DNA of 64,000 nucleotides from Flavobacteriales bacterium. Its GTDB lineage: Bacteria; Bacteroidota; Bacteroidia; Flavobacteriales_F; PHOS-HE28. Each line of letters opens with the position of its first letter. The first letter of the stretch is position 1. The notes below the pieces were generated by a model. It did no database searches. It had not been told where the DNA came from and saw only the letters and a list, made by a program, of their open reading frames with translations. Location: assembly GCA_023382455.1 (NCBI GenBank), contig JAHDVX010000006.1, positions 11,995 through 75,994 on the forward strand. The letters are read 5' to 3'. A program made the position numbers and the translations under genes. This document shows, piece by piece, positions 32,044 through 35,025 of this stretch.

Positions 32044-33282
32044 TTACTTGGACAATTCCAGCTTCAGGATGCGCAGTACTTCCAGCACGGTCTCATCCTC
32101 CAGGTCGGTGCGCTTGGCCAGTTCGTCCGGGGCGATCTCCACCACCGACCGGGCCGTGTCGCAACCGATGTTCTTGAGCGTGTCGATGATCCACGGCTCG
32201 ATCTCGTCCTTGAATTCGTCGAGGTCCACGTCATCGGTCACCTCGTCGCTGTCGCGGTACACGTCGATATCGTAGCCCGAGAGGCGACCGGCCAACTTGA
32301 TGTTGTGCCCACCCTTGCCGATGGCCAGCGCCACCTGGTCGGGCTTCATGTACACCTCGGCGCGCTTGTGGGCCTCGTCCAGCTTGATCTCGCCCACCTT
32401 GGCCGGGCTGAGGGCGCGTTGGATGAGCAGCTGGTCGTTGGTGGTGAAGTTGATCACATCAATGTTCTCGTTGCGCAGCTCGCGCACGATGCCGTGGATC
32501 CGGCTGCCCTTCATGCCCACGCAGGCGCCCACCGGGTCGATGCGGTCGTCGTAGCTTTCCACGGCCACCTTGGCCCGCTCTCCGGGCTCGCGTACGATGC
32601 GTTTGATGGTGATCAGGCCGTCGGCCACCTCGGGCACCTCCTGCTCGAAGAGCTTCTCCAGGAATTCCGGGGCCGTGCGTGAGAGCAGCACCACGGGGCT
32701 GTTGTTGCGCATCTCCACCTTCCACACCACGGCCCGCACGGTGTCGCCCTTCTTGAAGAAGTCCGTCTTGATGTGCTGGTCCTTGGGCATGATCAGCTCG
32801 TTGCCCTCATCATCCAGCACCAGGGTCTCGCGCTTCCAGATCTGGTACACTTCGCCGGTGATGATCTCGCCCACGCGCTCCTTGTACTTGGAGTAGATGT
32901 GGTCGCGCTCCAGCTCCATGATCCGGCCCTGGAGGTTCTGCTTGAGCGAGAGGATGCTGCGACGCCCGAAGTCGGCGATCTTCACCTCCTGGCTCACTTC
33001 CTCGCCCACCTCGAAGTCCGGCTCCACCTTCAAGGCATCGGACAGGGCGATCTGCTTGCCGGGGTCCTCCACTTCACCGTCCGGAACGATCTCGCGGTTC
33101 AGCCAGATCTCCAGGTCGCCCTTGTCGGGGTTGATGATGATGTCGAAGTTGGCGTCCTCGCCATACTTACGCTTCACCACACCGCGGAACACATCCTCCA
33201 GGATGCCCATCATGGTCACCCGGTCGATGTTCTTGAGGTCCTTGAATTCCCCGAAGGATTCGATGAGGTTCACTGTGCTCAT
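32044..33282 (-). CDS. nusA: Transcription termination/antitermination factor NusA
   Basis: NusA binds RNA polymerase and controls pausing, intrinsic termination and antitermination. The 412-residue protein has the N-terminal polymerase-binding domain, an S1 domain (about residues 130-205) and two KH domains. KH1 includes PVGACVGMKGSRI and KH2 includes VALAIGKGGHNIKLA. A short acidic C-terminal region (DEVTDDVDLDEF) follows. It lacks the duplicated acidic repeats of E. coli NusA. It sits 14 bases after rimP. The leader of this operon has a terminator-like hairpin, so NusA could influence its own expression. Confidence 0.98.
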   Translation of the reverse strand: MSTVNLIESFGEFKDLKNIDRVTMMGILEDVFRGVVKRKYGEDANFDIIINPDKGDLEIWLNREIVPDGEVEDPGKQIALSDALKVEPDFEVGEEVSQEVKIADFGRRSILSLKQNLQGRIMELERDHIYSKYKERVGEIITGEVYQIWKRETLVLDDEGNELIMPKDQHIKTDFFKKGDTVRAVVWKVEMRNNSPVVLLSRTAPEFLEKLFEQEVPEVADGLITIKRIVREPGERAKVAVESYDDRIDPVGACVGMKGSRIHGIVRELRNENIDVINFTTNDQLLIQRALSPAKVGEIKLDEAHKRAEVYMKPDQVALAIGKGGHNIKLAGRLSGYDIDVYRDSDEVTDDVDLDEFKDEIEPWIIDTLKNIGCDTARSVVEIAPDELAKRTDLEDETVLEVLRILKLELSK

Positions 33283-33296
33283 TGCACTTGCTGCTT

Positions 33297-33764
33297 TCAG
33301 TTGAGTTTGATGCTGGCCTGAACGGCCTTGATGCCGGTGAAGGGGATCACCGTGGATTCCTTGGAAAGTTTGGCCGCGCGGCCCTTGACGTTGGAGGGCA
33401 GCAGCACCCGCAGGGTGATGCCCGCCGTGTCCCGGGCCTCCAGCACGCCCTTCAGCGAGCCGCCATCGGCCAGCAGCACGTCCACCTCCTTGCCCAGGTG
33501 CTTATCGAACTGCTGCGCCACCTTGAAGGGCCGGCCCAGACCGGGGCTGCCCACCTGCAGCTCCACGTCGTCCAGGGCTTCGCCCAGTTCGGCCTGGAGC
33601 CCCTTATTGATGGCCGTCAGCTCATCCAGGGTGATGGGGCCCTCCTCGCGGTCCACCTCCACCACGGCCTTGCCACCGGGGCGCACCTCGGCACTGACCA
33701 GGAACCGCGCGGTTCCGGCCAACTGCCGCTGCAGGACTTCCTCCAACTGGGTGGTGGTGATCAT
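33297..33764 (-). CDS. rimP: Ribosome maturation factor RimP
   Basis: RimP assists assembly of the 30S ribosomal subunit. The 155-residue protein has two domains: an N-terminal alpha/beta domain with ITLDELTAINKGL and the characteristic VELQVGSPGLGRPF segment, then an SH3-like barrel with GVLEARDTAGITLRV. The start at 33764 gives a normal length. An open frame extends upstream to 33974, but it passes through the operon promoter and hairpin and ends inside the neighbouring gene. It is first in the conserved order rimP-nusA-infB. Confidence 0.95.
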   Translation of the reverse strand: MITTTQLEEVLQRQLAGTARFLVSAEVRPGGKAVVEVDREEGPITLDELTAINKGLQAELGEALDDVELQVGSPGLGRPFKVAQQFDKHLGKEVDVLLADGGSLKGVLEARDTAGITLRVLLPSNVKGRAAKLSKESTVIPFTGIKAVQASIKLN

Positions 33765-33790
33765 CTGGTTGCCGGTCACGGGACGGGAAC

Positions 33791-33814
33791 AAAAAAGAGG
33801 GGCGGTCCCCTCTT
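33791..33814 (-). terminator. Terminator-like hairpin in the rimP-nusA-infB leader
   Basis: In the minus direction AAGAGGGG, loop ACCG, CCCCTCTT forms an 8-bp stem and runs straight into a six-T stretch. This is the canonical form of an intrinsic terminator. It lies 27 bases before the rimP ATG and after the -7 box at 33843-33850, so it would attenuate the operon. The alternative is that it only ends the upstream EamA transcript and the operon promoter lies elsewhere. Confidence 0.75.
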
Positions 33815-33842
33815 CCTCTCCTTCACCGCACCGAAACGGCTG

Positions 33843-33850
33843 CAAATATA
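33843..33850 (-). promoter_or_regulatory. -7 box (TATATTTG) of the rimP-nusA-infB operon
   Basis: TATATTTG fits TAnnTTTG exactly and is the only AT-rich octamer in the 143-base gap. It implies a leader of about 70 bases that contains the hairpin at 33791-33814. Confidence 0.6.
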
Positions 33851-33907: not shown

Positions 33908-34864
33908 TCAGGCTCGCATCCCGCCCCTGTTCATCACCGCGATGGCCGCCAGGATCAGGAAAATGCCGGCCCATTGCACGGCCAGCACCTGCTCGTGCAG
34001 CACCAGGTAGGCCACGGTAACGGACACCGGAAGCTCCAAGGAGGAAACGATGCTGCCCAGGCCGAGCCCCACCTTGGGGAAACCGATGTTGAACAGGATG
34101 GGCGGCAGGATGGTGCCGAAAAGCGCGATGACCGGCCCGTAGGTGAGGAAGATGGAAGGCCGGAACGCCAAAGAGCCGTCCACCGGGACATGGCCACCGG
34201 GCACCAAGCCCCGCAAGGCCTCCACATGGTGCGGCCCCACCTGTGTGAGCCCGATGAAAGCCGCCACCACCAAGCTTCCGCCCAGGAGCATCAGCAGGCT
34301 CTTCCGGTAGGGCGGCACGTGGGTGGCGATGCGGTTGGACGCATACATCATGAACGTGAAGGTGGCCCCGGAGAGTAGCCCCCAGAGCACACCCCGGATA
34401 TCCAGGGCCACCTGCCGGCCGAACATATTGGTGGCCAGCACCGTGCCGATGAGGATCACCACCGTGGCCCAGGCTTTCCGGCCGCTGGGGAGCCGCCTTT
34501 GCAGCATGCTCTCCAGCACGATGCCGAACCAGACCGACTGCATCATCAGGACGATGGCGACCGACACGTCCACATAGCGCATGGAGATGTAGTAGGAAGT
34601 GCTGGTGACGCCGATGGCCAGCCCTGCCAGCATCAGCCGCCTACGGTCACGTCCGGAAACGGGCAAGGACGATCCCGGCTGCTTCCGGCACACGATCCGG
34701 TCCGCCGCCCAAAGACCCACCAGGCCCCATGCATACTGGGCGGCCAACACCTCCGCGGTGGTGTAGCCGCCCCTGTAAGCCAACTTGATCACGTTGCCAA
34801 GGACCCCATAGAAAATGGCCCCGAGCGCCACAAAGACTGCTCCCTTCACCGTTTCCTTCCCCAT
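33908..34864 (-). CDS. EamA/DMT-family transporter
   Basis: A 318-residue inner-membrane protein with ten hydrophobic helices in two similar halves, the layout of drug/metabolite transporters of the EamA family. The first half includes YYISMRYVDVSVAIVLMMQ. The second ends with the typical LELPVSVTVAYLVLHEQVLAVQWAGIFLILAA. Substrates range from amino acids to nucleosides; none can be assigned here. The start at 34864 places the first helix near the N-terminus. It stands alone, upstream of the rimP operon on the same strand. Confidence 0.88.
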   Translation of the reverse strand: MGKETVKGAVFVALGAIFYGVLGNVIKLAYRGGYTTAEVLAAQYAWGLVGLWAADRIVCRKQPGSSLPVSGRDRRRLMLAGLAIGVTSTSYYISMRYVDVSVAIVLMMQSVWFGIVLESMLQRRLPSGRKAWATVVILIGTVLATNMFGRQVALDIRGVLWGLLSGATFTFMMYASNRIATHVPPYRKSLLMLLGGSLVVAAFIGLTQVGPHHVEALRGLVPGGHVPVDGSLAFRPSIFLTYGPVIALFGTILPPILFNIGFPKVGLGLGSIVSSLELPVSVTVAYLVLHEQVLAVQWAGIFLILAAIAVMNRGGMRA

Positions 34865-35025
34865 GGCGGACCAGCCCGTGAATTTAGGCTGAAGGGACGA
34901 GGGTTCGCGAGAAATGGGCCAAGGAGGCCACCATGAAATGCGCTTTGTGGCACACACCGTGGGGGCCGTCCTGGATGGGCCGCCCCCGCCGCGGAACTTG
35001 CGCCCCTACCGGGCACGACACCAGC

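Follow-up and report, generated by a model that had tools for sequence, protein, structure and literature searches.

Within a 64,000-nt stretch of Flavobacteriales DNA (the window), a short GC-rich hairpin followed by a run of T precedes rimP, the first gene of the rimP-nusA-infB operon. The locus raises the question whether this hairpin attenuates transcription of the operon, and if so, what decides between termination and read-through. The reading preferred here, with a probability of about 0.6, is a Bacteroidota rimP-leader attenuator of rimP-nusA-infB, with NusA as the best candidate regulator.

Anatomy of the rimP leader

The features of the locus are collected in Table 1. The hairpin lies on the minus strand, 28 nt 3' of the TATATTTG box and 26 nt 5' of the rimP ATG. 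An earlier note on this DNA had described an 8-bp stem with a 4-base loop and six T between an exact -7 box and rimP, leaving the strand unstated. The element is real at that place, on the minus strand, and the box agrees exactly with the Bacteroidota -7 consensus TAnnTTTG (PMC7366714). Stem and loop also stand as described, but 'six T' after 8 bp counts two T twice: an 8-bp stem leaves TTTT and a 7-bp stem TTTTT. When G-U pairs are allowed, the stem grows to 12 bp and uses up the whole T-run. This is probably why a simple consensus terminator scan of the window (7 sites listed, 9.1 expected) misses the hairpin, since the scan would stretch the stem via G-U pairs into the T-run. The 73-nt rimP leader folds on the minus strand at -32.6 kcal/mol (z -3.05), a value equalled by 1 of 200 shuffles, and the plus-strand fold shows nothing notable (z -1.04). 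A DNA operator palindrome is disfavoured because the T-run is found on one side only.

Table 1. Predicted features of the rimP leader and its surroundings, in window positions
Feature	Position	Strand	Basis or remark
TATATTTG, predicted Bacteroidota -7 promoter element	33843..33850	minus	exact match
Predicted leader terminator with G-U-extended stem GAGGAAGAGGGG/CCCCTCTTTTTT	33791..33818	minus	38-leader consensus: 12 pairs, of which the inner 8 never vary
Predicted leader terminator, core 8-bp hairpin AAGAGGGG-ACCG-CCCCTCTT	33795..33814	minus	read from sequence
5' stem arm AAGAGGGG	33814-33807	minus	
Loop ACCG	33806-33803	minus	
3' stem arm CCCCTCTT	33802-33795	minus	
T-run (U-tract), six T	33791..33796	minus	first two T shared with the 8-bp stem
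rimP, first gene of the operon, 155 aa	33297..33764 (ATG at 33764)	minus	translation and weak Pfam matches
nusA, 412 aa, NusA_N and KH domains	32044..33282	minus	NusA_N 1.3e-30, KH_5 3.4e-26
infB, 905 aa	29272..31989	minus	Pfam IF-2 5.4e-40
EamA-family transporter gene, outside the element	33908..34957 (start codon uncertain)	minus	Pfam EamA 2.7e-17

The RimP of the window scores 21.3 bits for DUF150_C and 17.3 bits for RimP_N, both under the Pfam cut-off. With the RimP of this genus below these cut-offs, automatic annotation may overlook the gene. Between the N-terminal and KH domains of the window's NusA, no S1-domain Pfam match is found at E 0.01; possibly, only a divergent S1 is present.

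Conservation in the genus, the class and the phylum

Of the 45 genomes of the genus, 39 contain a RimP homologue, with RimP identity as low as 47%. Forty upstream regions were read and 38 were aligned, excluding L030, which is cut by a contig end, and L032, whose leader is identical to L031's. The 8-bp stem and the six T are invariant in all 38 leaders. Mean pairwise identity amounts to 100% for stem and T-run, 87% for the promoter box, 57% before the hairpin and 40% after it, and the loop mostly reads A/G-CCG. The exact motif occurs once in each of 39 of 44 genus genomes, and the five genomes that lack it also lack a RimP match; in the window's own genome it is single-copy even with up to 3 mismatches. 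Since stem and T-run are identical in 38/38 leaders and present in one copy per genome in 39/44, a chance hairpin is excluded. A consensus fold of the 38 leaders holds no covarying pairs within the genus, the sequence itself being held fixed. In one genome (G028), two different contigs each hold a rimP locus with the hairpin (L039 and the truncated L030), perhaps reflecting a strain mixture in the assembly.

The promoter box recurs as well. As TAnnTT(T/C)G, it is present in 39/39 genus leaders, 22-31 nt before the stem, and as TAnnTTTG in 31/31 same-class leaders (from 31 of 36 genomes opened), 12-30 nt before it. A box 10-32 nt upstream of the hairpin is found in all 31 class leaders, versus 2.5% of shuffles. 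The leader in the window has no canonical -33 TTG at a spacer of 17-21 nt; a TTG precedes the box in 16/39 genus leaders (18-19 nt) and 22/31 class leaders (17-21 nt). Outside the class, 50 of 76 loci lack an exact TAnnTTTG within the 5-45 nt preceding the hairpin, which, like the missing TTG of the window, weighs against the preferred reading. The possibility, raised in the earlier note as a refutation, that the operon's transcript starts downstream of 33791 is weakened by the box preceding the hairpin in 39/39 genus and 31/31 class leaders. As only 21-30 nt (60 nt at one locus) separate the T-run from the start codon in the genus, there is also little space for a later promoter.

The same note had allowed that the hairpin only ends the EamA transcript. 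In the window, the EamA gene indeed runs in the same direction and stops 94 nt short of the hairpin. However, an EamA gene was found ahead of the hairpin at just 2 of the 39 genus loci, namely the window and L006; the other 37 gave no EamA match, while the hairpin does not change. At L012 and L015, the sole long coding-like upstream ORF is on the opposite strand according to a crude ORF test, and every genus leader has the promoter box ahead of the hairpin. A mere 3' terminator of the upstream gene is therefore rejected as highly improbable.

For the survey of the phylum, PF02576 matched 146 of 148 genomes, but not the window's own RimP. Of these 146 genomes, 110 were opened, 30 automatically and 80 chosen to cover genera. 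In a folding-based search, 107 of 110 leaders contain a hairpin of -8 kcal/mol or lower followed by a T-tract, although in some GC-rich loci (e.g. L055, L072) the hairpin picked by energy may be a different one from the leader terminator. The same search returned 6/110 shuffled leaders and, in same-class genomes, 5/30 purA and 3/30 recA leaders; none of these eight control hairpins has a TAnnTTTG box up to 70 nt upstream. Weaker hairpins are present in the three remaining leaders (L062, L114, L129). With a stricter, bulge-free finder at -8 kcal/mol, the counts are 78/110 leaders versus 6/550 shuffles. A set of 80 loci from named genomes, spanning Flavobacteriales, Bacteroidales and other Bacteroidota MAGs, included three that were too short; the hairpin was found in 72 of the remaining 77, two of them (L200, L231) at an odd distance, and was lacking in 5. 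An exact box within 60 nt was found in 48/77. The conservation upstream of rimP in relatives that the earlier note had suggested checking thus extends through the genus, class and phylum samples, and the arrangement it had pointed out, a hairpin between a predicted promoter and rimP, is conserved far beyond the genome of the window.

Most class stems read GAGGGGAC..GTCCCCTC. At L085 (genus g6), the stem is GAGGCACGC..GCGTGCCTC, both arms having changed together. In the class alignment (MAFFT, with some stems shifted), both-side changes occur in 4 of 8 pairs and slid controls are not clearly lower, so that covariation in these sequences is weak as proof of an RNA structure. The class stem pattern matches 40 of 198 genomes, at one place each. 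Seven of these loci were opened and six precede a RimP-like ORF, as judged from translation. The exception, L300 in genome G241, has the GAGGGGAC..GTCCCCTC hairpin and no RimP-like ORF on either side.

Mechanism and candidate regulators

The hairpin, its T-tract and the promoter box are deeply conserved, independent of the upstream gene and free of a competing structure. Judged from sequence, the element is well supported as a minimal promoter-proximal intrinsic attenuator of rimP-nusA-infB. RNA polymerase would start about 6 nt past the -7 box, and some 40-50 nt further on, the GC-rich hairpin and the U's would form, upon which some polymerases would release and others read through the operon. 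Assuming a start 6 nt after the box, the predicted terminated RNA has a median length of 45 nt in the class, with a range of 36-52 nt, and measures 40-49 nt in the genus.

No antiterminator fold was found: leader plus 5' arm alone reaches a median of -0.1 and at best -4.5 kcal/mol, versus -12.4 to -13.5 kcal/mol for the hairpin. A riboswitch or antiterminator is rejected, as the stretch before the hairpin cannot mask its 5' arm. Likewise, no conserved leader ORF or ATG is present, and a conserved leader peptide is rejected because an ATG precedes the hairpin in only 14/39 genus and 6/31 class leaders. A two-tier G-quadruplex in the purine-rich 5' side was dropped; its pattern occurs in 19/39 genus and 0/31 class leaders.

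Because the leader before the hairpin is too short and unstructured to hold a riboswitch, antiterminator or leader peptide, the fraction of read-through would most likely depend on a factor that travels with the polymerase. NusA is the foremost candidate, since it is encoded in the operon and since there are precedents in B. subtilis and E. coli. A 2025 review (PMC12288461) states that NusA of B. subtilis controls its own synthesis by stimulating termination in the leader, and according to a 2019 paper (PMC6511841), E. coli NusA regulates its own operon. That NusA reads the attenuator in Bacteroidota is plausible by analogy, and would imply a negative feedback in which more NusA leads to more termination. 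We infer that termination takes place in the cell, affects only part of the transcripts and is regulated, with NusA as the regulator.

The NusA-dependent terminators of B. subtilis are weak, and NusA might therefore matter little at the rimP hairpin. Furthermore, the polarity of the stem flips in several families, which speaks against one fixed sequence being read by one protein. Such flipped stems, with a C-rich 5' arm and a G-rich 3' arm, are seen in families f13, f15, f29 and f33 (L121, L123, L134, L043 and others), and resemble the first leader hairpin of E. coli.

Alternatively, the hairpin might stop a fixed share of transcripts without any regulation, and only bring operon output down to a constant level. 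A leader without sensor structure, leader peptide or antiterminator would suit this, as would a strong stem with U6. Nevertheless, stem invariance in the genus exceeds what a fixed strength requires, and the sources cited above describe control by NusA for the counterparts in B. subtilis and E. coli; a fixed terminator is considered unlikely. Regulation by another factor, be it antitermination by a cold-shock protein or control by NusG, a ribosomal or assembly protein (e.g. RimP) or a retained sigma factor, fits the very short distance from start to terminator, with the hairpin within about 50 nt. For the E. coli operon, moreover, a proposal of CspA-type antitermination is cited in PMC6511841. 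The same paper reports E. coli data inconsistent with antitermination, however, and the direct precedent belongs to NusA (PMC12288461, as summarised there); a different reader is accordingly considered quite improbable. Finally, having its own conserved promoter box and conserved terminator, the RNA of about 45 nt could be taken for a trans-acting small RNA; outside the hairpin it is poorly conserved (57% identity) and has no conserved seed, leaving this explanation extremely improbable.

Returning to NusA, a more specific model can be put forward tentatively. The nusA operon of Bacteroidia might carry a factor-only attenuator consisting of a promoter and one hairpin, which would halt the polymerase at about +45, near sigma exit and NusA entry. 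Such a switch would need no sensor RNA and might directly gauge the speed at which NusA loads on early elongation complexes.

Comparison with known leaders and significance

As described by Naville & Gautheret (2010, PMC2965389) in their account of the rimP-leader, this is a short, sequence-conserved terminator for which NusA feedback was tentatively proposed. Their screen covered 302 genomes, and the leader is reported there in Firmicutes and Gammaproteobacteria; the terms 'bacteroid' and 'flavobact' are absent from the main text. The element described here shares with it the gene, the operon and the place between a predicted promoter and rimP, as well as a G-rich 5' arm, a C-rich 3' arm, a T-stretch and the lack of a visible antiterminator. 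Both motifs are specific to the leader, that of the window being single-copy in its own genome. The distance to the gene is 4-130 nt for the rimP-leader according to the same account, and 26 nt for the window hairpin. Of the published motif GGGc(...)gCCC, the GGG/CCC core is present, in the form GGGG(nCCG)CCCC in the genus and GGGGAC..GTCCCC in the class; the c-g step is missing in the genus (loop nCCG) and is mostly GAC..GTC in the class. The predicted stop at about 45 nt contrasts with a B. subtilis leader of 180 nt, as given in PMC2965389.

The likeness to B. subtilis NusA autoregulation consists of an intrinsic terminator in the nusA-operon leader, NusA dependence being proposed here by analogy. 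In the metY-rimP region of E. coli K-12, rimP is likewise preceded by two hairpins followed by T-runs, of which the second is GGGC-TTTA-GGCCC with TTTTTTT, but the region differs in its tandem terminators, upstream tRNA and longer leader. Rfam RF01770 (rimP) represents the leader of the same operon. It has no match in the window, none above the gathering cut-off in 20 relatives, and among 14 control genomes a match in E. coli only.

The idea of a rimP-leader has been known since 2010; what is new is how nearly universal and how extremely compact the element is in Bacteroidota, together with its invariant sequence in the genus. In the open-licence literature, searched by titles and abstracts, no report of a Bacteroidota rimP-leader attenuator was recognised, which does not prove absence.

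The element extends to Bacteroidota what its describers in 2010 called, in their account, the 'most ubiquitous transcription attenuator' (PMC2965389). Bacteroidota promoters differ from those of model bacteria, and the public RNA model is blind to the element there. Due to its shortness, the leader would provide a clean template for asking what sets termination in the nusA operon. The sampled Bacteroidota very probably rely on a built-in brake of a known type, with NusA perhaps as its reader, and the element favours the view that NusA feedback is ancient.
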